Of a stretch of 56,420 nt of DNA, positions 3,541 to 47,874 are shown piece by piece. Made by a program: the position numbers and the translations under genes. Source of the stretch: an uncultured Actinomycetes bacterium. Its GTDB lineage: Bacteria; Actinomycetota; Thermoleophilia; RBG-16-64-13. The DNA is taken from contig CAIQPS010000124.1 in the NCBI GenBank assembly GCA_903873715.1, forward strand, positions 1-56,420, in the 5' to 3' direction. The notes under the pieces are model-generated. The model was not told where the DNA came from. It made no database searches and worked only from the letters and a program-made list of their open reading frames with translations. Positions within the stretch are counted from its first letter, which is position 1. Every line of letters starts with the position of its first letter.

Positions 3541-5175
3541 ATGGTCATCACCGACGTACTCGCGCGGAACGCCGCGGACTACGGGGACGAGGTATGCCTC
3601 GTCTGCGTCAACCCCGAGATGAAGGACAAGCCCGCCGTCACCTGGCGCGACTACGAACTCCAGGAGACCAACGCCGGCGAGTATTCCCGGCGGGAGATGA
3701 CCTGGCGGATCTTCGACGACCACGCCAACCGCTTCGCCAACCTGCTGCTGAGCCGCGGCATCGGCAAGGGCGACAAGGTGGCCATCCTCCTGATGAACTG
3801 CCTGGAGTGGCTGCCCATCTACTTCGGCATCCTCAAGGCCGGCGCTATCGCCGTGCCCATGAACTACCGCTACACGGCCGAGGAGATCGAGTACTGCCTC
3901 AAGCTGTCCGAGTCGCGGGCGCTGGTCTTCGGGCCGGAGTTCGTGGGCCGCGTGGAGGCGGTCGTGCCCAAGATGCCCGGATTGACGCCGCGCTTCTTCG
4001 TGGGCGCCGACCGGCTGACCTTCGCCGAGAGCTACTACGACGCCACCGTCGACTGCTCCGCCGAACCGCCGGCCGTGGCGCTGACGCCGGAAGACGACGC
4101 CGCCATCTATTTCTCGTCCGGCACCACCGGCTTCCCCAAGGCCATCCTGCACGACCATCGCAGCATCCTGTCGGCCGCCGAGGTGGAGCAGAACCATCAC
4201 GGCCAGACCCGCGACGACTGCTTCGTGTGCATCGCCCCGCTCTACCACACCGGGGGCAAGATGCACTGGTTCGGCAGCCTGCTGTCGGGGAGCAAGGGCG
4301 TGCTGCTGCGGGGCACCAGGCCGGAATGGATCCTCAGGACCATCTCCGACGAGAAGGCCACCGTCGTGTGGCTGCTCGTGCCGTGGGTGCAGGACCTGCT
4401 GGTTGCCATCGACCGCGGCGACGTCAAGCTCGACGACTACGACCTGAGCCAGTGGCGCCTCATGCACGTCGGTGCCCAGCCGGTACCGCCGAGCCTCATC
4501 CATCGTTGGCTGGAGCACTTCCCCCATCATCAGTACGACACGGACTACGGTCTCACCGAGTCGGTGGGGCCGGGCTGCGTGCACCTCGGTGTGGAGAACG
4601 TCCACAAGGTCGGTGCCATCGGCATCGCCGGCTACCAGTGGGAGACCAAGATCGTCGACGAGGCCGGCGCTCCGGTGCAGCCCGGCGACATCGGCGAGTT
4701 GGCGGTGAAGGGCCCCGGCGTCATGAAGTGTTACTACAACGACCCCGCGGCCACCGCGGCGACCATCCGCGACGGCTGGCTGCTCACCGGCGACATGGCC
4801 CGCACCGACGAGGACGGGTTCATCCACCTGGTGGACCGCAAGAAGGACGTCATCATCACCGGCGGCGAGAACATCTACCCGGTGCAGGTGGAGGACTTCC
4901 TCCATCGCCATCCGGCCGTAAAGGACGTGGCCGTCATCGGCCTGCCGGACGAGCGCCTGGGCGAGATCGCGGCCGCCATCGTGCAGGTCAAGCGGGGCCA
5001 GCACGCCACCGAAGAGGACATCCTGCAGTTCTGCGCCGAGTTGCCACGGTACAAGCGCCCGCGGCGGGTCATCTTCGACCAGGTGCCGCGCAACGCCACC
5101 GGCAAGATCGACAAGCCGGGACTGAGGCGGCGGTATAACGCGGAGGGGCTGGTACAGACGGAGTCAGAGAACTAG
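3541..5175 (+). CDS. AMP-dependent acyl-CoA synthetase / ligase
   Basis: A 544-residue ANL-superfamily adenylating enzyme. It shows the AMP/phosphate-binding loop YFSSGTTGFPKA at about residues 190-201, the A5-type motif DYGLTESVG near 337, the hinge region TGDMARTDEDG near 417, and the C-terminal catalytic lysine context ATGKIDK. It activates a carboxylic acid to an acyl-adenylate and then to acyl-CoA. Length and motifs fit medium/long-chain fatty acid or aryl acid CoA ligases, but the substrate cannot be read. It starts at ATG 3541 behind AAGGA and stands alone. A structured repeat element begins 3 bases after its stop codon. Confidence 0.9.
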   Translation: MVITDVLARNAADYGDEVCLVCVNPEMKDKPAVTWRDYELQETNAGEYSRREMTWRIFDDHANRFANLLLSRGIGKGDKVAILLMNCLEWLPIYFGILKAGAIAVPMNYRYTAEEIEYCLKLSESRALVFGPEFVGRVEAVVPKMPGLTPRFFVGADRLTFAESYYDATVDCSAEPPAVALTPEDDAAIYFSSGTTGFPKAILHDHRSILSAAEVEQNHHGQTRDDCFVCIAPLYHTGGKMHWFGSLLSGSKGVLLRGTRPEWILRTISDEKATVVWLLVPWVQDLLVAIDRGDVKLDDYDLSQWRLMHVGAQPVPPSLIHRWLEHFPHHQYDTDYGLTESVGPGCVHLGVENVHKVGAIGIAGYQWETKIVDEAGAPVQPGDIGELAVKGPGVMKCYYNDPAATAATIRDGWLLTGDMARTDEDGFIHLVDRKKDVIITGGENIYPVQVEDFLHRHPAVKDVAVIGLPDERLGEIAAAIVQVKRGQHATEEDILQFCAELPRYKRPRRVIFDQVPRNATGKIDKPGLRRRYNAEGLVQTESEN

Positions 5176-5178
5176 TGG

Positions 5179-5282
5179 GAACCCAAGCGAGCCCCCGCTC
5201 ACCACGCGGGAACCCAAGCCAGCCCCCGCTCACCACGCGGACGGGTACGCCCGCTCACGTTCGCACGGGCTCGCTTGGGTTC
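5179..5282 (-). repeat. structured intergenic hairpin element, copy 1
   Basis: An arm of 16 bases at 5179-5194 is the exact reverse complement of 5267-5282. A near-copy of the left arm is repeated at 5210-5225, so the left side is partly duplicated in tandem. The enclosed loop at 5226-5266, read on the minus strand, contains GCGAACGTGA, a 7-bp inner hairpin with loop TACC, and GTGGTGAG. The inner stem has one G-U pair in that orientation. It lies between the acyl-CoA synthetase stop codon and mntP. Role unknown; it could act as a terminator or as an RNA-level element. Confidence 0.75.
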
Positions 5283-5887: not shown

Positions 5888-5911
5888 CAGGTAGGCCCCC
5901 ATGCGGGGTGA

Positions 5912-5986
5912 CGCGCCCGGGCATGCCCCAGCGAACGTGAGCAGACGTACTCGTCAGCGTGGTGAGATGGGGTATGTCCGGACGCG
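5912..5986 (+). repeat. structured intergenic hairpin element, copy 2
   Basis: The core arms are 5918-5930 and 5968-5980: 13 pairs, of which two are G-U in the plus orientation. The stem extends outward to 5912/5986 with one C-A mismatch. The loop 5931-5967 contains GCGAACGTGA, an inner hairpin capped by TACT, and GTGGTGAG, nearly identical to copy 1 read on its minus strand. The right arm ends one base before the stop codon of the convergent reductase gene. Confidence 0.75.
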
Positions 5987-7072
5987 CTAGTACACCTTGG
6001 GGATGATGCGGCTCGGCACTCGCCGCCTGTATTCGGCCCACAGCGGCCCGTACTTGGCCGCGCAGCGGCGGTCGTCGGCCCACTGGCGCGGGAACAGCAG
6101 GAAGACGTAGAACGCCGGGTAGAGCCAGACCTCCCAGACGCCCAGGTACCATGGCGCCAGGGCGAGCGCCAGCGCCATCAGTATCTCGCCCAGGTAGTTC
6201 ACGTGCCGGGAGACGCCCCACCAGCCGTTGGCCAGCACCGACCTCTCGCCATCGGTTATCACGAGGGGCTTGATGAAGCCCAGGTACGCCTTGTCCGGGT
6301 GGCGCTTGAACACGTACTTCTGCATGTTGGCCCCGCGGGACAGCGCCCAGCCGGCAAAGAACACCACGGCGGGGACCACTATCCCCCAGACCGGTATGCC
6401 GGGATCCGGCTTGTCGGCGGTCGCCCACAGCCCGATCGCGTAGAAGTAGGGGTAGAAGGTGAAGCATCCCCAGCCGAGCTTGAACCCGAGCCGCTCCGCG
6501 AAGATGTCGTAGGTGTAGAGATGGACGCGCTCGAAGGTCAGGTAGTCGACGATGAACCACATGAACAGGGCGCAGTAGAGGCCGACGCCGGGCGACGACC
6601 GCGAGGCGAACGTCAGCACGTGGTGGGCGGTGAAGGAGAGCACGTTCAACGCCAGCAGCACGGCGCCGATGAGGTACAGGTACATCTTGACGTCCACCCG
6701 GCCGCCGAACCACTGCGGGTTCTCCCAACGGCCGAAGTAGAAGTCGGCGAGCAACGAGCGGCCGGTCTTGGGCGCGGGGATCACCATGCCGACGCTGAAG
6801 AGCACGCCCAGCACGAACGACCCGATGAGCCCGGACCAACGGTGCGTCCACAGCCAGTCCCAGGCGATGACGCCCGTCCAACTGAGCAGGACCCAGAGCA
6901 GCACGACGACACCCAGGACGAGCAGGCCGTTGAGGCGGTAGCGGAGGGGCTTGCCGGTCGCCGGGTCGGTGACGTAGCCCTCGACCTTCTCGGCGGGCAG
7001 GAGCAGGTGCAGCAGGAGGATGACCGCGTAGATGATCCAGGGGGCGAAGAAGCCCGGAACGAAGTCTTTCAT
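5987..7072 (-). CDS. ERG4/ERG24 sterol-reductase family integral membrane protein
   Basis: A 361-residue protein with roughly nine to ten membrane segments. The C-terminal half carries the family signature: GWWGVSRHVNYLGEILMALA near residues 270-290, and a terminal RRRVPSRIIPKVY. These correspond to the NADPH- and substrate-binding core shared by eukaryotic C-14 and C-24(28) sterol reductases and lamin B receptor. The family reduces a ring or side-chain double bond of a polycyclic isoprenoid using NADPH. The isoprenylcysteine methyltransferase-like fold is related, so the reaction in a bacterium is uncertain. Its ATG overlaps the stop of the upstream SDR by 4 bases (ATGA), which implies a shared transcript and pathway. 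Confidence 0.8.
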   Translation of the reverse strand: MKDFVPGFFAPWIIYAVILLLHLLLPAEKVEGYVTDPATGKPLRYRLNGLLVLGVVVLLWVLLSWTGVIAWDWLWTHRWSGLIGSFVLGVLFSVGMVIPAPKTGRSLLADFYFGRWENPQWFGGRVDVKMYLYLIGAVLLALNVLSFTAHHVLTFASRSSPGVGLYCALFMWFIVDYLTFERVHLYTYDIFAERLGFKLGWGCFTFYPYFYAIGLWATADKPDPGIPVWGIVVPAVVFFAGWALSRGANMQKYVFKRHPDKAYLGFIKPLVITDGERSVLANGWWGVSRHVNYLGEILMALALALAPWYLGVWEVWLYPAFYVFLLFPRQWADDRRCAAKYGPLWAEYRRRVPSRIIPKVY

Positions 7073-7983
7073 GGCGCATCCTTGTGTCGTGGGCGGTCGG
7101 CGGCGGGTGATGCGGTGGGCGATGCGGCCGCCGGGGCGGCCTGCGGGGCGGCGAGCACCTCGGTGTTGCCGGCCATGATGGCTATTGCGCGGCGGCGGGG
7201 CAGCAGGCGGATCATGAGCGCGGCGGCCACCTTGTTCAGCCGCCCGGGTACGACGACGGGCTTGCGGCCCAGCGCGGCCAGGGCTTGAGCGACCACCTGC
7301 TCGGGGTCGAGGGTGCCGGGAGCATCCTTGCCCTCGGAGGCGCCGGAGTAGCCGGGGGTGCGGACCGCGCCTGCCTGGCAGGCGAGGATGTCGACCCCCT
7401 CGTCCTTCAGTTCGTACCACAGCCCTTCGGCGAACACGCGGATGAACGCCTTGCTGGCGGCGTAGGTGGAGATGTAGGGCGACCCTTGATTGCCGGCCAG
7501 CGAGGTCATGAGGATCACGCCTCCCCGGCCGCGGGCGACCAGGCCGGGCAGGAGGCCGTGAACCAGGCTCACCGGCCCCCTGACGTTGACGGCGGCGACG
7601 CGGAGCAGATCGTCCAGCCGCGCCGATGTGAACGGGCCCACGGGTGCGTGGGCTGCGTTGTAGACCAGGAGCCCGACGTCCAGAGAGGCGCAGGTCTCGA
7701 GAAGCTCTTCGAGGAAACGGCGGTCGCCGAGGTCGCCGTCCAGGCAGCGGACCCGGACACCGTGGTCGCGCTCGAGCGCCGCGCCACACTCCTCGAGCGC
7801 CTCCCGCCGGCGGGCCACCAACACCAGGTCCAGCCCCCGGGCCGCGAGCGCCCGGGCATAGGCGGCGCCCAATCCCTCCGACGCGCCGGCCACCAAGGCC
7901 CAGGGACCATAGCGGTCCACGAACCCTGTGCGGGTCCACGCAGCGGAGGTGTCTCGTTTCGCGACCATCGGTGCCTGGAGCAT
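7069..7983 (-). CDS. short-chain dehydrogenase/reductase (SDR)
   Basis: A classical SDR of about 304 residues. The coenzyme loop is GASEGLG (TGxxxGxG type), followed by NAA in the NNAG position, SLAG containing the catalytic serine, and YAASK containing the catalytic Tyr and Lys. The C-terminal part after about residue 240 is basic and Ala/Pro-rich. I chose ATG 7983 (MLQAPMVAK); ATG 7968 is equally possible because neither has a clear Shine-Dalgarno site. It reads into the sterol-reductase homologue with a 4-base overlap. It most resembles ketosteroid/ketoacyl-type SDRs, but the substrate is unknown. Pairing with an ERG4/ERG24-type enzyme suggests a polycyclic or isoprenoid alcohol/ketone. 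Confidence 0.82.
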   Translation of the reverse strand: MLQAPMVAKRDTSAAWTRTGFVDRYGPWALVAGASEGLGAAYARALAARGLDLVLVARRREALEECGAALERDHGVRVRCLDGDLGDRRFLEELLETCASLDVGLLVYNAAHAPVGPFTSARLDDLLRVAAVNVRGPVSLVHGLLPGLVARGRGGVILMTSLAGNQGSPYISTYAASKAFIRVFAEGLWYELKDEGVDILACQAGAVRTPGYSGASEGKDAPGTLDPEQVVAQALAALGRKPVVVPGRLNKVAAALMIRLLPRRRAIAIMAGNTEVLAAPQAAPAAASPTASPAADRPRHKDAP

Positions 7984-25789: not shown

Positions 25790-25873
25790 CCGCCGGCCGG
25801 ACGCGCCCGGCGCGGCTCACCCCACCGGGCGACCGCACGCCGCCGAAGCGCCGGACGCGGCTTCAGCCGCCCC

Positions 25874-29121: not shown

Positions 29122-29214
29122 GCCATCCCCCTTGACGAGAACTCCCGGTGTCGCCATTGTAGGGTATACGGTGGCTATTGGGCCGCCGCTCAATAGAAGC
29201 CAAGGAGGCTCGTG

Positions 29215-29655
29215 ATGTCCGAGGAAGTCAAGTTCTATCCCGCATATTGGGGGGGCAAGAAGCTCAACTACCCCAACTTCCCGGCCGAGTCGCCCAAGTT
29301 CGCCAACTCGGTGGTCGTGGGTAACCTCATCTTCGTGTCCGGCTGCCAGGGTCAGAACGACGAACTGATCAAAGTCGAGACCGACGTCTTCGAAGAGCAG
29401 ATGTGGATCGCCCTCGACAAGGTGCGGGCCGTGATGGAAGAGGCCGGCAGCAGCATGAACAACATCGTGAAGACACTGATGATGCTCAAGCGCCTCGAGG
29501 ACTACCCCAAGATGCGCAAGACCGAGCTCGAGTACTACCAGAAGTACGCGCCGATGCTGGTGGAGAACCCGCCGGCGAGCACCTTCATGCAGGTGGGGCT
29601 GGCCAAAGACGAGTTCCTGGTCGAGATCGATGTAGTGGGAGTCGTACACCGGTAG
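29215..29655 (+). CDS. RidA (YjgF/UK114) family protein
   Basis: A 146-residue RidA-fold protein. FANSVVVGNLIFVSGCQGQN and DVFEEQMWIALDKVRAVMEEAGSS are the central RidA blocks, and ENPPASTFMQVGLAKDEFLVEIDVVG holds the C-terminal strand. The family hydrolyses reactive enamine/imine intermediates, but the catalytic Arg of canonical RidA is not obvious here because it reads FMQVG, so another subgroup is likely. ATG 29215 follows AAGGAGG. A structured repeat starts at the base after its stop codon. Confidence 0.8.
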   Translation: MSEEVKFYPAYWGGKKLNYPNFPAESPKFANSVVVGNLIFVSGCQGQNDELIKVETDVFEEQMWIALDKVRAVMEEAGSSMNNIVKTLMMLKRLEDYPKMRKTELEYYQKYAPMLVENPPASTFMQVGLAKDEFLVEIDVVGVVHR

Positions 29656-29733
29656 GACCACGCGCACAGGCCCGCGGCTCACTCTGCAGCAGAGTACCGC
29701 CGCAATGTTCGCCGCGGGCCCGCACGCGTGGTC
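29656..29733 (-). repeat. structured intergenic hairpin element, copy 3
   Basis: The 22-base arms at 29656-29677 and 29712-29733 pair along their full length when read on the minus strand, with three G-U/U-G wobbles; on the plus strand those become A-C mismatches. The loop 29678-29711, also on the minus strand, holds CGAACATT, a 7-bp inner hairpin capped by TACT with two more G-U pairs, and AGAGTGAG. The left arm begins at the base after the RidA stop codon, 90 bases before the Ku gene. Confidence 0.8.
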
Positions 29734-29823
29734 GCACCCTGTCACTTCTGGCGGGTGAAGAGCGCGGCCGGGTGGCGCGCAATACGGCAGGTTCGGGTAG
29801 GGCGAAGGGAAGGGAGAAGGCGT

Positions 29824-30669
29824 ATGGCTCGGGCGCTGTGGAAAGGGGCGATCAGCTTCGGGCTGGTGACCATCCCGGTGTCGCTCTACCCCGCGAAGGA
29901 CGCCCGGGACACCATCGCGTTCCACATGCTCCATCGTGACGACCTGCGCCGCGTGCACTACAAGCGCGTGGACGACGAGGGGCACGAGGTCGCCCTGGAG
30001 GACATCGTCAAGGGATACGAGTACGAGCGCGGACAGTACGTTGCGCTCGAGCCCGCCGACCTAAAAAAGGCGAACGTCGAGGCCACCCAGAGCATCGACA
30101 TCATGCAGTTCGTCGACGCGAGCGAGATCGACGTCGCCTACTACGACACCCCTTACTACACGGAACCGAGCAAAGTCGGCCGCCGGGCCTACGCCCTGCT
30201 CCGCGAGACCATGCGGCGGGCGGGCAAGGTGGGCGTGGCCAAGATCGTCATCCGCGAGAGACAGCACCTGTGCGCCGTCGTAGCCGACGGCCCGGTGCTG
30301 CTCGCGTGCACCCTGCGCTGGCCGTATCAGTTGCGCGGCGCCGCCGACCTGGACCTCCCCAGCGAAGACCTCTCCGACCTCTCCGTCACGGAGCAGGAGC
30401 TAAAGATGGCCGAGCAACTCGTCGCCGCCATGGCCGGTGAGTGGCGACCCGAGCAGTACCGCGACACGTATCACGACGACGTGCTCGAGTTGATCGAGGA
30501 GAAGGTCAGGAGCGGGAAGGTCACCGCCCGGAAGGAACCCACCAAGCCCGGGCAGGGCGGCGAAGTGGTCGACATCATGGCGCTGCTCAAGCAGAGCATC
30601 GAGTCGAAGCGCTCGGCACCCGCACAGAAGGAAGCCAAGCCGCGGCGCACGGCCGGCGGCACCCGCTAG
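29824..30669 (+). CDS. ku: Ku protein for bacterial non-homologous end joining
   Basis: A 281-residue homologue of bacterial Ku. The opening MARALWKGAISFGLVTIPVS is characteristic. The core beta barrel runs to about residue 200 (YYTEPSKVGRRAYALLRETM is a family block). A short basic C-terminal tail (residues about 235-281) probably contacts LigD or DNA. A Ku homodimer encircles DNA ends and recruits LigD, whose gene follows 9 bases downstream. The start ATG 29824 has AGGGAGAAGG upstream. This pair appears complete and functional. Confidence 0.95.
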   Translation: MARALWKGAISFGLVTIPVSLYPAKDARDTIAFHMLHRDDLRRVHYKRVDDEGHEVALEDIVKGYEYERGQYVALEPADLKKANVEATQSIDIMQFVDASEIDVAYYDTPYYTEPSKVGRRAYALLRETMRRAGKVGVAKIVIRERQHLCAVVADGPVLLACTLRWPYQLRGAADLDLPSEDLSDLSVTEQELKMAEQLVAAMAGEWRPEQYRDTYHDDVLELIEEKVRSGKVTARKEPTKPGQGGEVVDIMALLKQSIESKRSAPAQKEAKPRRTAGGTR

Positions 30670-30678
30670 GAGACACCG

Positions 30679-33474
30679 ATGGCGCTTGAGGAGTACCGCA
30701 GGAAGCGGGACTTCGCGAGGACCCCGGAGCCGGCGGGTGGCGATGACGGCGCGGCCGGGCAGGGCGGCGGCGCAGGGCACGGAGAGGCGGCCGGCGGCGC
30801 AGCCGCGCCGGTCACACCGGCGGCGCAGGCCGTGGGCGGCCGGCGCCTTTACCTCATACAGAAACACGACGCCAGCCGCCTACACTACGACTTTCGTTTG
30901 GAACTGGACGGCGTGCTGCTGTCTTGGGCCATCCCCAAGGGCCCGTCGCTCGATCCCCATGACCGGCACCTGGCCGCGCGCACCGAGGACCATCCGCTGG
31001 CGTACGGCGGCTTCGAGGGCACCATCCCGGAGGGCGAGTACGGAGCCGGCACGGTGCTCCTTTGGGACCGGGGGACGTGGGAACCGGAGGGCGACCCGCA
31101 CGAGATGATGCGCAAGGGGGATCTCAAGTTCACCCTGCGCGGCGAGAAGCTCCGAGGGTCGTGGGTACTGGTGCGCATGAAGCCCCGGCCCGAACGGGGC
31201 GACAAGGAGGAATGGCTGCTGATAAAGCACCGGGACGAGGAGGCCGTCGACGGCGAGGGCGGACGGATCCTTGCGGAGCGGCCAGAGTCCGTGGCGAGCG
31301 GCCGCTCGTTGGAGGAGATCGCGGCCGCCGGAACGGCCAGCGTGTGGCACAGCGACCGGCCCGCCGCCGAGCAGACGGGAGTAAGGCCGGGCGAGGACTT
31401 CGCCCTACAGCCGGGCGCGCTGCGCGGCGCCCTCCCCGCCGCCACCCCGCCGCGTTTCGTCCAGCCGGAACTCGCCACTCTGGTCGAGAAGGCCCCGGCC
31501 GGCAAGGACTGGCTCCACGAGATCAAGTTCGACGGCTATCGGGCGCTCGCGCGCATCGAGGACGGCTCGGTCCAGATGTACTCCCGCAACGACAAGGACT
31601 GGACCGCCCGGTACGGCCCGATCGTCGATGATTTGGCCCGGATGCCGGTGGAGAGCGCGGTTTTGGACGGCGAGGTCGTCGTGGTGCTGCCGGACGGCCG
31701 CACCAGTTTCCAGGGACTGCGCGACGAACTGGGCGTCGGCGGCCGGGGCGCCGACGGGACGGGGGCCGGCGCAGCCGCCGGCGCGGACAGCCGCCTCGTC
31801 TTCTACGTCTTCGACCTGCTGCACCTGGACGGATACGACCTCACCGGCGCGGCCATCGAGGACCGAAAGGACCTGCTCCGCCGCCTGCTGGCCCGGCTGG
31901 GCCAGGGTGGCCGCATCCGCTTCTCCGACCACGTCGCCGGCGACGGCGCCGAGATGCTCGCCCAGGCCTGCAGCCTGGGGCTGGAGGGCATCGTGAGCAA
32001 GCGGGCATCGACGCCGTACCGCCCGGGTGTCCGTGGCGGCGAATGGCTCAAGTCGAAGTGCAAGGCACGGCAGGAGTTCGTCATAGGGGGCTACACCGAC
32101 CCGGCCGGAGCCAGGACCGGGTTCGGCGCGCTGCTCCTGGGGGTGCGGGAGGACGGCGGGCTGCGCTACGTCTCCAGGGTCGGCACCGGCTTCGACGAGC
32201 AGACACTCAAGGCACTGGCCGGGCGGCTGACGGCCATGCGGGTTGACGCTCCGCCGTTCACGGCCGGCGTGGACAAGGCGCCGAGGGCCGCCCACTGGGT
32301 GCGCCCGGACCTGGTGGCCGAGGTGGAGTTCGCCGAGTGGACGCGGGACGGGGGGATCCGCCACCCCAGCTTCAAGGGACTGCGAGAGGACAAGCCGGCC
32401 GACGAAGTGGTGGCGGAGGTGCCTCTGAGGGCTTCGGAGACGAAGAGCGCTGCGCCGGCGGCGGCTGGCGGCGACGCAGCGAGAGGCGGCCGCTCCAAGG
32501 GCGCCACCGCGGCCGCGGCGGCCGCGGCGGCCGCTGCCGTCGAGGTCAACGGCGTCACCATCACCCATCCCGAGCGGCTGTTCTGGCCCACCCCGGGCGT
32601 CACCAAGCTCGACCTGGTCCGCTACTACGACCAGGTGGCCGAGCGGATGCTCCCCTACGTCGTCGACCGGCCCATCTCCATGGTGCGCTGCCCGGCGGGC
32701 GTGGACGACGGCGCCCCGGCGGCACAGCAGCGCGGCGGTCGCCCGGCGGGGTGCTTCTTCCACAAGCATCCTGCGGAGGATTTCCCCCGGCCTCTTGGGC
32801 GGGTGATGATCACCGAGTCGGCGGGGCCTGCGCCCTATCTCACCATAGAGGAACCCGGCAGCCTCACCGCCCTGGCGCAGATGGGCGTATTGGAGATCCA
32901 CATGTGGGGAGCGACGTGGCCGGACATCGAGCGGCCGGACATGGCCGTCTTCGACCTCGACCCGGGGCCCGGCGTCGCTTGGGAGGCCCTCGCGGACGGG
33001 GCGCGGCTGGTGCGGAAGGTGCTGAAGACGGTAGGGCTGGAGAGCTTCGTCAAGACCACCGGGGGCAAGGGCCTGCACGTGGTCGCACCCCTCACGCCTC
33101 ACGACGGCTGGAAGGAAGTGGAGCAGTTCTGCCGCCGCATCGCCGACATCATGGTGGAACTCGTGCCCGATCGCTTCACCGCGAACATGTCGAAGTCCAA
33201 GCGCGAGGGCAAGATGTTCGTCGACTACGTGCGCAACACCAGAGGTTCGACGTCGATAGCCCCGTTCTCCACCCGGGCCAAGGAGCAGGCGACCGTGTCG
33301 GTGCCTCTGCGCTGGTCGGAACTCAGCGGCTCCATCCGCCCGGACAGCTTCACCGTCGAGACCCTTGGGCGGCGCCTGCGCCGGCTCAGGGACGACCCGT
33401 GGGAGGGCTACTTCGAGGTGAGGGCCGCCCAGCAGGTGCGGCCCGACATCAGGCGGGCGCTGGGTCTCGAGTAG
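30679..33474 (+). CDS. ligD: multidomain ATP-dependent DNA ligase LigD
   Basis: A 931-residue LigD with all three modules. The 3'-phosphoesterase occupies about residues 50-185 (HDASRLHYDFRLELDG). The ATP-dependent ligase occupies about 250-560, with nucleotidyl lysine Lys283 in EIKFDGYRA. The archaeo-eukaryotic primase-like polymerase occupies about 625-925, with metal-binding Asp759 and Asp761 in FDLDPGPG. The phosphoesterase-ligase-polymerase order is that of Pseudomonas LigD, not the polymerase-first order of mycobacteria. Low-complexity Ala-rich linkers flank the ligase (residues about 15-50 and 590-620). It acts with Ku to process and seal double-strand breaks, and is co-transcribed with ku. 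Confidence 0.95.
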   Translation: MALEEYRRKRDFARTPEPAGGDDGAAGQGGGAGHGEAAGGAAAPVTPAAQAVGGRRLYLIQKHDASRLHYDFRLELDGVLLSWAIPKGPSLDPHDRHLAARTEDHPLAYGGFEGTIPEGEYGAGTVLLWDRGTWEPEGDPHEMMRKGDLKFTLRGEKLRGSWVLVRMKPRPERGDKEEWLLIKHRDEEAVDGEGGRILAERPESVASGRSLEEIAAAGTASVWHSDRPAAEQTGVRPGEDFALQPGALRGALPAATPPRFVQPELATLVEKAPAGKDWLHEIKFDGYRALARIEDGSVQMYSRNDKDWTARYGPIVDDLARMPVESAVLDGEVVVVLPDGRTSFQGLRDELGVGGRGADGTGAGAAAGADSRLVFYVFDLLHLDGYDLTGAAIEDRKDLLRRLLARLGQGGRIRFSDHVAGDGAEMLAQACSLGLEGIVSKRASTPYRPGVRGGEWLKSKCKARQEFVIGGYTDPAGARTGFGALLLGVREDGGLRYVSRVGTGFDEQTLKALAGRLTAMRVDAPPFTAGVDKAPRAAHWVRPDLVAEVEFAEWTRDGGIRHPSFKGLREDKPADEVVAEVPLRASETKSAAPAAAGGDAARGGRSKGATAAAAAAAAAAVEVNGVTITHPERLFWPTPGVTKLDLVRYYDQVAERMLPYVVDRPISMVRCPAGVDDGAPAAQQRGGRPAGCFFHKHPAEDFPRPLGRVMITESAGPAPYLTIEEPGSLTALAQMGVLEIHMWGATWPDIERPDMAVFDLDPGPGVAWEALADGARLVRKVLKTVGLESFVKTTGGKGLHVVAPLTPHDGWKEVEQFCRRIADIMVELVPDRFTANMSKSKREGKMFVDYVRNTRGSTSIAPFSTRAKEQATVSVPLRWSELSGSIRPDSFTVETLGRRLRRLRDDPWEGYFEVRAAQQVRPDIRRALGLE

Positions 33475-44264: not shown

Positions 44265-44651
44265 GTGGCACGCACCAAGATCAAGATCGACTACGGCCTC
44301 TGCGGCGACGGCCAGGGCGTGGACCCGCGGGAGTGCGGCGAGTGTCTGCGGGCGTGCGGACCGGCCGTCTTCCTGCTGCATCAGACCCTGGGCGCGGTCG
44401 AGCCCGATCCCTTCGACCCCCAAGCGTGGCGCGTGACCCCCATGTGGGCGACGCTGTGTGACCGCTGCGGCAGGTGCGTCGAGGTGTGCCCGCAGAAGGC
44501 CATAGCGGTGACGGGCGGAGCGGGCCGCAGGTCTGCGGCGGCCGGCGCGCCCGGCACGGGAAGGCGACCGGCAGATGGCGGCGCGCCCAGCGCGGGGTGG
44601 CGCTCGCGGATAGGGTCCCACAGACTACGGAAGAGGAGTCCGGCTTCGTGA
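44265..44651 (+). CDS. small ferredoxin-like protein
   Basis: A 128-residue protein read from GTG 44265. Residues 10-35 hold a Cys group (CGDGQGVDPRECGECLRAC) and residues about 65-85 a second (CDRCGRCVEVCPQKA), as in 2[4Fe-4S] ferredoxins. The last 40 residues are low-complexity Ala/Gly/Arg. It is the middle gene of the Fe-S operon, and its stop overlaps the GTG start of the epimerase by 4 bases. Its partner is unknown. Confidence 0.7.
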   Translation: MARTKIKIDYGLCGDGQGVDPRECGECLRACGPAVFLLHQTLGAVEPDPFDPQAWRVTPMWATLCDRCGRCVEVCPQKAIAVTGGAGRRSAAAGAPGTGRRPADGGAPSAGWRSRIGSHRLRKRSPAS

Positions 44652-45667
44652 GCGCACATTCGATGGCACCCGCCATGGACTACACCCGCTGCACCGTCAT
44701 CGGCGGCGCGGGCATGCTGGGCTTCGAGATGGTCAAGCAGTTGCTGGCCGCCGGCAAGCAGGTGACGGTGCTCGATCTGCACCCGCTGCCTGAGCCGCTG
44801 TGCGACGGCCGCGTGGGCGACATCCGCGACCGAGCCGCCGTAAGGGCCGCGTGCGAGGGCAGCGAGGTGGTCTTCCAGACGGCCGCCGCAGTGTGGGAGC
44901 CGGGGACCCCGGCCGGGATCTACGAGACGGTGAACGTCGAAGGCAACCGCATCGTCATCGACGCGTGCCGCGGACTGGGCATCCGGCGCCTGGTGTACAC
45001 CAGCACCATCGACGTGGTGTGCGACGGCCGCAAGCCCATCGTGGACGGCGACGAATCGCTCCCCTATCCCGCCGAGACTCCGGACGACCACTACTCCCGC
45101 ACCAAGATCGAGGCGGAGAAGATGATGATGGCCGCCAACGGCCCGGACCTCGCCACCTGCGCTCTCCGACCCGCCGGGATGTACGGCCCCCGCGACCGCT
45201 ACCACCTGGGCAACATCGTGGACATGGCCCGGCGCGGCAAGTACATGCGGGTCGGGAGCGGCAAGGCCCGCTTCACCCATGTGTACTCGGAGAACGCGGC
45301 CCACGTCCATCTGCTGGCGGCAGACCGGCTGTTCCCCGGGTCACCGGTCGCCGGCCAGATCTACTTCGTGGGCGACCACTACCCGGCCACCAACCTGTTC
45401 GACTTCATGGAGCCCTACCTGGAAGGACTGGGATTGCCGGTCCCCAAGCGGAGCATCCCCTACCCGGTGGCGTACGCGGCCGCCTGCGTGGCCGAATTGG
45501 TGGCGCCGAAGTCCAACCTCACCCGTTTCTCCGTGGCCCAGACCTGCGTGGACCACACCTACCGCCACGACAAGGCCGAACGCGACCTGGGCTACTCACC
45601 GATAGTGTCGTTCGAAGAGGCCTTCCGGCGGACGTTGGCCTACTGGAAGGAGCATTCAATAGAGTGA
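44648..45667 (+). CDS. NAD-dependent epimerase / 3beta-hydroxysteroid dehydrogenase-like SDR
   Basis: A 339-residue extended SDR. The Rossmann motif CTVIGGAGMLGFEM (TGxxGxxG type) opens the fold. VYTSTIDVVCDGRKPIVDGD and HYSRTKIEAEKMMM carry the catalytic YxxxK (Tyr, Lys), and TCALRPAGMYGPRDRYHLGN matches the 3beta-HSD/NSDHL group (PF01073). Members oxidise 3beta-hydroxy groups of sterols or act on nucleotide sugars. It starts at GTG 44648, overlapping the ferredoxin stop. The structured hairpin element starts at the base after its stop. Confidence 0.82.
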   Translation: MSAHSMAPAMDYTRCTVIGGAGMLGFEMVKQLLAAGKQVTVLDLHPLPEPLCDGRVGDIRDRAAVRAACEGSEVVFQTAAAVWEPGTPAGIYETVNVEGNRIVIDACRGLGIRRLVYTSTIDVVCDGRKPIVDGDESLPYPAETPDDHYSRTKIEAEKMMMAANGPDLATCALRPAGMYGPRDRYHLGNIVDMARRGKYMRVGSGKARFTHVYSENAAHVHLLAADRLFPGSPVAGQIYFVGDHYPATNLFDFMEPYLEGLGLPVPKRSIPYPVAYAAACVAELVAPKSNLTRFSVAQTCVDHTYRHDKAERDLGYSPIVSFEEAFRRTLAYWKEHSIE

Positions 45668-45747
45668 GCGCCGCCCACAGGCGCCCGAAGGAGCATGAGC
45701 GTAGCGTACTCGCGCGCGTAGCGACGACGGGCGTCTGTGGGCGGCGC
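45668..45747 (+). repeat. structured intergenic hairpin element, copy 4
   Basis: 20-base arms at 45668-45687 and 45728-45747 pair fully, with a single G-U in the plus orientation. The loop 45688-45727 contains AAGGAGCATGA, an inner hairpin capped by TACT, and GTAGCGACGA. The loop is nearly identical to copy 5 although the arm sequences differ. It starts directly at the end of the epimerase stop codon. Confidence 0.8.
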
Positions 45748-45784
45748 CCCGTGCGCGTAGCGAGGAGGGGAGTCCACGCGCGCC
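45748..45784 (+). repeat. truncated copy of the hairpin element (3' half)
   Basis: GTGCGCGTAGCGAGGAGGGG and the following AGTCCACGCGCGCC match the 3' half of copy 5 (its GTAGCGACGA segment and right arm) but have no left arm. It sits directly downstream of copy 4, before the Cys/Met enzyme gene. It may be a remnant of a duplication. Confidence 0.5.
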
Positions 45785-47057: not shown

Positions 47058-47082
47058 ACGGCGCCGGCGCCGAAGTTCGAGC

Positions 47083-47159
47083 GGCGTGCGTAGGCGCCCC
47101 GAGGAGCATGAGCGTTAGCGTACTCGCGCGCGTAGCGACGAGGGGTGTCTACGCACGCC
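47083..47159 (+). repeat. structured intergenic hairpin element, copy 5
   Basis: 18-base arms at 47083-47100 and 47142-47159 pair fully with two G-U wobbles in the plus orientation. The loop 47101-47141 contains GAGGAGCATGA, an inner TACT hairpin and GTAGCGACGA. The right arm covers the last codons and stop of the DUF169 gene on the opposite strand. Confidence 0.8.
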
Positions 47160-47874
47160 CCAGCGTCCCGCCCCGCGCCCGCATCAGCGTGCTGAGGAAG
47201 CGGTTGTGCAGCGAGCTCTTGGGGTCGGCCGCCCATCTGGCCAGCAGGTCGAACATCGGACGGGTGACGGTGAAAGCCACCATGCACGGGTCGAGATCGG
47301 CGCGCGCGGCCTGGTCCAGCGATCCGATGAGGGCCTGCGGCGCATCCAGATCGTCGAACAGCGCCGCCAACTGCATGCATCCCGAGCCGAACCTCGCGAT
47401 CAGCGGGTCGATGTCGTCCGGATGGCTGTAGTAGATGGCGCCGGCGGTCAGTACGGACAGCTGGTCGGGGTCGACGTACCAGGTCACGGACCGCAGGTAC
47501 TGGTACTGGCCGGGCTTGAGCGGCCCGATCAGCAGGTTGCCGTTCACCGGGGTGTAGTGCGGGGCCGAGTCGAGCCATAGGTTCATCAGCTCGTGGTCGG
47601 CCTTCAACCCCTCCTCGTCGCACAGGAACTCGACGAGGTCCTGCCGCGACCGTTCGGCCAGGCCGAGCAGGTGCATCCCGCCGCAGCCATGCTTCTCCTT
47701 GGTGAGGTGGAGGGTCTTGCCGTCGCGCCAGTCCTGCATCGAGCGGAAGACGCACTGCCGGCCCTTCGGCACCACGAGCGGCTCGAACGGCGCCGGATCG
47801 GGCGCGTCGTAGAAGCCCACCAGCGGGCCGGTGATGGAGAGCTTCTCGATGATCGGCGAGATGTCAGGCTGCAT
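47149..47874 (-). CDS. DUF169 family protein (second of two)
   Basis: A 241-residue protein that I place in DUF169 (PF02596) by its opening (SPIIEKLSITGPLVGFYDAP), a Cys at CVFRSMQDWRDG, GCGGMHLLGLAERS near 60, and a central block with TAGAIYYSHPDDIDPLIARF and GCMQLAAL. It is convergent with the Cys/Met enzyme, and its stop is inside hairpin copy 5. The function is unknown. Confidence 0.65.
   Translation of the reverse strand: MQPDISPIIEKLSITGPLVGFYDAPDPAPFEPLVVPKGRQCVFRSMQDWRDGKTLHLTKEKHGCGGMHLLGLAERSRQDLVEFLCDEEGLKADHELMNLWLDSAPHYTPVNGNLLIGPLKPGQYQYLRSVTWYVDPDQLSVLTAGAIYYSHPDDIDPLIARFGSGCMQLAALFDDLDAPQALIGSLDQAARADLDPCMVAFTVTRPMFDLLARWAADPKSSLHNRFLSTLMRARGGTLGRA

Follow-up and report, generated by a model that had tools for sequence, protein, structure and literature searches.

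A dispersed hairpin family with covarying arms and a conserved tip, lying antisense at gene ends in the genome of an uncultured Thermoleophilia bacterium

What is the long hairpin that closes the L-PSP endoribonuclease-family gene (29212-29655, plus strand) of this uncultured bacterium, which of its strands folds, and why do others like it stand elsewhere in the same DNA? In the window, by which we mean the whole stretch of 56,420 nucleotides analysed, a first-pass annotation had described five copies of a shared architecture, and all five lie where it placed them or within a few bases, with the loop segments and the TACY loop that it gave. With one mismatch allowed outward, the hairpins extend over 5210-5282 (c1, minus strand), 5909-5989 (c2, plus), 29651-29738 (c3, minus; the element under study), 45666-45749 (c4, plus) and 47081-47161 (c5, plus). 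When the whole window is searched for long-loop hairpins, four of the copies head the rankings for one or other of the strands, and c1, whose arm is duplicated, also comes near the top.

The c3 hairpin, which belongs to the ATT/AGA subtype defined below, runs antisense to the L-PSP-family gene, and its foot overlaps the stop codon of that gene. A Ku gene (29728-30669) adjoins c3 as well, and after it comes a frame of 931 aa (30679-33474). As listed, the Ku gene would start within the hairpin; its true start probably lies near 29824. Similarly antisense, c2 overlaps with its foot the stop codon of an ERG4/ERG24-like gene (5987-7939, minus strand; upstream start uncertain), and its conserved tip (5933-5965, plus strand) is composed of GA, AC, GTGA, the inner stem with a TACT loop at 5948-5951, GTG, GT and GA. 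The c5 hairpin (ATGA/GTA subtype) is antisense to a DUF169 gene (47149-47874, minus strand), whose last codons lie inside its 3' arm. The c1 hairpin is antisense to an AMP-binding enzyme gene (3541-5175, plus strand) and stands 34 nt from its stop codon because a duplicated 3' half (5179-5209, minus strand; GCGTGGTGAGC at 5197-5207) sits between them; the span of 5179-5282 originally assigned to this copy therefore contains the hairpin together with this extra half. The c4 hairpin, also of the ATGA/GTA subtype, lies in the sense orientation directly 3' of the stop of a 3Beta_HSD gene (44474-45667, plus strand), and to its right is a partial extra 3' half (45753-45784, plus strand; GCGCGTAGCGAGGAGGGG...) that resembles the 3' half of c5.

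A covariance model (R1) was built from the aligned copies c1, c2, c4 and c5, c3 being left out because the first MAFFT alignment had misplaced it. Within the window R1 recovered the held-out c3 at 50.9 bits (E 1.5e-9), and genome-wide (3.33 Mb in 169 contigs, 96.9% complete) it found 17 copies at E<=1.4e-5, while a DNA similarity search added an 18th, on contig C18, to which R1 gives 34.7 bits. A second model (R2), rebuilt from all 18, returns exactly these 18 at E<=5.1e-9 and no further or weaker match up to E=1 among the 150 first-look candidates scored genome-wide; no half-decayed copies are therefore apparent. The E-values derive from short-calibrated models and are rough, and the whole analysis rests on one genome assembled in 169 contigs. 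The five copies first described are thus part of a family of 18, 13 of which lie outside the window. A further hairpin in the window (25802-25859; 12 bp with a 34-nt loop), which lies between convergent genes and begins its 3' arm on the minus strand with GGTGAGC, is like the family in place and size; the model does not find it up to E=1, and it is possibly a distant cousin or else a product of chance.

Four pairs of copies lie no more than 2.5 kb apart (c1 with c2 and c4 with c5 in the window, 8597-9706 on contig C141 and 3871-6299 on contig C87), against an average spacing of 185 kb for 18 copies in 3.3 Mb, and neighbours within these close pairs have the same tip subtype. Additionally, an extra 3' half lies just beyond the hairpin in three copies, namely c1, c4 and the copy on contig C160 (L035 6108-6152), and in two of these three cases it lies between hairpin and stop codon; the extra halves look like remnants of a second copy whose 5' half is gone. 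Matches to GCGTGGTGAGC outside the elements, considered as candidate solo halves, lack the element fold and mostly look coding.

Across the family the hairpin is about 80 nt long (range 73-91 nt; 79-91 bp in 16 of the 18 copies) and consists, in the TACY orientation, of an outer stem of about 20 bp and a structured tip of 34-41 nt. The tip has GA steps facing each other on both strands (GA in 18/18 copies on one and in 17/18 on the other) and above them two base pairs (AC/GT or GC/GC), an asymmetric internal loop in one of three forms (GTGA/GTG, ATGA/GTA or ATT/AGA, the copy on contig C89 having an aberrant loop) and, at the apex, an inner stem followed by a G-TAC(T/C)-C loop. This tip is nearly invariant among the copies, as expected for a motif recognised by a protein, while the arms are free to change with pairing kept. 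The arms had been held to differ in every copy; genome-wide they prove to be homologous and not independent, with identities of up to 87% and a mean of 47% against 33% for shuffled arms, and the family therefore dispersed from common ancestors. The same homology rules out the capture of pre-existing terminators. In the flanks there is no conserved promoter, target or other motif, k-mer enrichment being within the shuffled range.

Several lines of evidence establish that the fold is maintained. In the 18-copy alignment, which was fitted to the model and has almost no gaps in the arms, standard pairs occupy 90.1% of pair cells against 64.2% after shuffling, both partners have changed in 23 of the 28 pairs, and covariation scores 0.69, compared with 0.21 for shuffled data. 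No shuffle reached any of the five pairing and covariation measures, and sliding the partner by 1-3 columns lowered the covariation score to at most 0.17 and pairing to at most 53%. Because relatedness can fake such counts, we used a tree-aware null in the manner of R-scape, a simplified implementation of our own applied to 18 sequences, in which parsimony substitutions are redistributed along the copy tree. Covariation above this phylogenetic null, a general criterion for a structured RNA, was found at E<=0.05 in 6 of the 28 pairs when all 2211 column pairs were considered, and in 12 of the 28 when structure pairs only were. The single significant pair outside the structure lies inside the internal loop, between the first base on the GTGA/ATGA/ATT side and the last on the GTG/GTA/AGA side; it exchanges G..G with A..A and is likely a non-canonical pair. 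The terminal branches in the tree of copies are for the most part younger than the dispersal; there, 96.0% of the ancestral pairs in the arms remain paired where 81.5% would be expected, and double changes number 30 instead of an expected 5.8. Selection has therefore acted since the copies spread. Even the most similar two share only 90% identity; the copies are therefore old, and each is still being maintained individually.

The non-standard pairs indicate which strand folds. In the TACY orientation the 13 copies outside the window have 31 GU against 5 AC (p 1.3e-5); the window copies, for which 11 GU and no AC had been counted originally, give the close figures of 12 GU and 1 AC on the model's pairs, and all 18 copies together give 43 GU against 6 AC. 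The structure conservation index is 0.94 for the TACY strand and 0.63 for its complement, and from these two measures it follows that it is the TACY strand, folded as a single strand, that is under selection. With held-out detection and tree-aware covariation, this asymmetry bears out the first-pass annotation in its view of a family of structured elements with covarying stems. Maintenance of a palindrome at the DNA level, through template-switch correction between the arms and without any folded strand being selected, would likewise produce matching changes in the two arms, but it predicts perfect arms and no GU/AC asymmetry; since the invariant tip and the covarying non-canonical pair of the internal loop also speak against it, we consider it very improbable. 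The asymmetry had further been taken as expected only if RNA is the selected molecule, which overstates the case. A G-T wobble is a tolerated mismatch also in folded single-stranded DNA hairpins, and because folded ssDNA likewise prefers GT over AC, the counts show which strand folds and do not prove RNA. The hairpin likely acts as RNA.

The most informative fact on function, which the first-pass annotation had missed, is the antisense placement of the copies at stop codons. Neighbouring genes were called by open frame and codon-position GC, and a Pfam domain confirms the strand for 15 of the 18 adjoining genes. The TACY strand is antisense to the adjoining gene in 17 of the 18 copies (p 1.4e-4), c4 being the only sense copy, and in 14 of these 17 its 3' foot lies at the stop codon of that gene, within -13 to +5 nt. 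Two of the other three are displaced by a duplicated 3' half, and the third, on contig C149, stands at 22 nt beside a small tandem repeat, three units of ~11 nt (GACTCAGTGAC...) lying between foot and stop codon (L037 6374-6400, right of the element). Compared with uniform placement in the intergenic gap, the placement of the feet has a combined p of 8e-12, in a test that uses our own gene-start calls for the far neighbour. About half of the copies lie between convergent genes and about half between codirectional genes; in all nine convergent gaps the hairpin is closer to the stop of its antisense partner than to that of the codirectional gene, and in the codirectional contexts the folding strand is part of no ordinary mRNA. 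The adjoining genes are without obvious common function (accA, a LysR regulator, ubiD, a T2SSF protein, MFS, LytR, an amidohydrolase and others), and one of them, a CN_hydrolase gene of contig C141, has a copy on either side, both pointing the same way. TAG predominates among the stop codons that adjoin the elements, as it does genome-wide (53% TAG), and copies beside TGA and TAA also exist.

With such a placement, the elements might be ordinary GC-rich terminators or mRNA-end-stabilising hairpins of the neighbouring genes, alike through shared composition. Their position directly after stop codons would agree with this, as would the strong hairpins found 10-90 nt downstream of several other genes in the genome. 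However, the strand whose fold is under selection is the antisense strand of the gene, the strongest of the other gene-end hairpins among the genes sampled are mostly short-looped and none has the tip, and a conserved tip of 35 nt is unneeded by a terminator. No T-tract follows the foot on the TACY strand in any of the 18 copies, and one does so on the gene strand in a single copy of 18; the lack of a U-tract directly after the hairpin rules out membership of the intrinsic terminators. Strand asymmetry and tip conservation largely refute this explanation, which we regard as improbable. The bidirectional terminators found between convergent genes (PMC7566282) are likewise long GC-rich hairpins at gene ends, whereas the elements described here lack U/A tracts, possess a tip resembling a protein site and occur in as many codirectional contexts.

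Beyond its own genome, the element was found in none of the more than 800 related genomes searched: 60 relatives (17 belonging to the same family, and none being another species of the same genus), 396 genomes of the phylum and 399 of the class gave no match, nor did the viral contigs, plasmids or phages searched. Wherever a search covered more than 40 genomes, the filters were stricter and only a few candidates were taken from each; the element was still found in its own genome under these settings. A strict pattern scan of genome_contigs gave 9 matches, but no convincing element surrounds any of them, the best scoring 22.6 bits (E 0.0084), and an empty-site comparison of the accA locus with relatives found the element absent and the downstream sequence unrelated. 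In Rfam no family lies at or near its gathering threshold, low-threshold scans giving chance-level miRNA and sRNA matches only; as membership in the REP, attC and intrinsic-terminator families failed too, the original impression that no known family fits has held. The lineage-specific structured RNA motifs of Rfam share with the elements covariation, invariant internal loops with tandem G-A and a strand-specific fold, but the elements are known only as many copies in one genome, at gene 3' ends and antisense.

A possible, if somewhat doubtful, explanation for this distribution is a non-autonomous mobile element of a REP- or REPIN-like kind, whose folded ssDNA would be recognised by a transposase or recombinase; orientation and stop-codon adjacency would then reflect the enzyme's choice of target, and the covarying arms a recognition of shape plus tip. 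The dispersed copies with homologous arms, the four neighbouring pairs within 2.5 kb, the restriction to one genome and the extra 3' halves in c1, c4 and the C160 copy are all consistent with mobility, and the GT-over-AC asymmetry fits ssDNA as well as RNA. On the other hand, a search for a Y1_Tnp gene (IS200/IS605, RAYT) gave 0 matches in the 96.9% complete genome and was positive in 5 of 14 control genomes; no two copies exceed 90% identity, which argues against recent spread, and yet there are no decayed copies; and the flanks have no conserved target, the adjoining stops being mostly TAG as elsewhere in the genome. REPs are palindromes that measure 20-40 bp; their stems comprise 5-13 bp, their loops span 2-20, and they bear a GTAG or CGTC tag (PMC3733652, PMC2817692; size definition PMC3733652), and have been seen as binding sites and possible mRNA-end elements (PMC3733652, PMC2817692). 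The elements resemble REPs, BIMEs and REPINs as dispersed intergenic palindromic hairpins with many copies in one lineage. However, they are longer, with stems of ~20 bp, a structured tip of 34-41 nt and covarying arms, and stand in a fixed antisense orientation at stop codons in a genome without a RAYT gene. Size, stem and loop place them outside the REP definition, and the TAG beside their feet is the stop codon itself, in a genome with 53% TAG usage, and beyond it the feet show no GTAG, GTGG or CGTC tag.

The attC sites of integrons follow stop codons, fold on the antisense strand of the gene and have their conserved part at the base. The elements share with them the position directly downstream of stop codons, the folding of the antisense strand and arms that vary yet stay complementary, and this position and folding strand, as well as the CN_hydrolase gene bracketed by two copies of the same orientation, would suit attachment sites of an integron-like system. 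In contrast to attC, the conserved part is apical, the RYYYAAC/GTTRRRY motifs of the R boxes occur in 0 of the 18 feet, and the copies are scattered beside housekeeping genes such as accA. In addition, the best match to the integron integrase model TIGR02249 reaches 85.7 bits against a cut-off of 265, the matches being ordinary tyrosine recombinases. Of the explanations considered, integron-like sites are the least probable.

The reading that we prefer, with a probability of roughly 0.42, is that of a dispersed hairpin, most likely RNA, that persists at the ends of genes as a site where antisense or convergent transcripts are blocked or processed. One hairpin family of ~80 nt would at some time in the past have spread to at least 18 sites in the lineage, selection for the folded shape of one strand now maintains each copy, and the tip (two GA/GA steps, a short helix, the asymmetric internal loop, the inner stem and the UACY loop) would be recognised by a putative protein factor. 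As the folding strand is antisense and ends at the stop codon, it would be present in any transcript about to enter the gene from its 3' end, whether that transcript reads through from a convergent gene or is an antisense RNA that comes from the promoter region of the next gene. The folded RNA and its tip-binding factor may stop, cut or stabilise such transcripts at the gene end, and the hairpin would thereby serve as an insulator against antisense transcription. While the structure is firm, we infer the mechanism, comprising action as RNA, a bound factor and a barrier function, from patterns in the DNA; a barrier or processing point for antisense transcripts would be the simplest function fitting both convergent and codirectional contexts. 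Several observations weigh against the barrier: the T-tract is absent after the foot on the folding strand, so the hairpin would not be a self-sufficient terminator; about half of the copies lie between codirectional genes; the flanks have no conserved promoter or other motif; c4 is in the sense orientation; and a barrier supplies no mobilising mechanism for the dispersal.

Most bacterial palindromic repeats have been explained as selfish DNA or ignored. In this genome the copies are old and diverged, yet paired substitutions have preserved the fold of each, and a single copy departs from the rule of orientation and stop-codon adjacency; individual upkeep together with the shared placement rule makes a per-locus function directly testable. 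It is conceivable, though rather unlikely, that the elements represent a new bacterial class, in which a dispersed hairpin with a putative protein-recognised tip, placed antisense at stop codons by rule, would shield gene ends from antisense or convergent transcription after domestication from a mobile palindrome. The family offers a case of a dispersed repeat that has apparently turned into a gene-end device.
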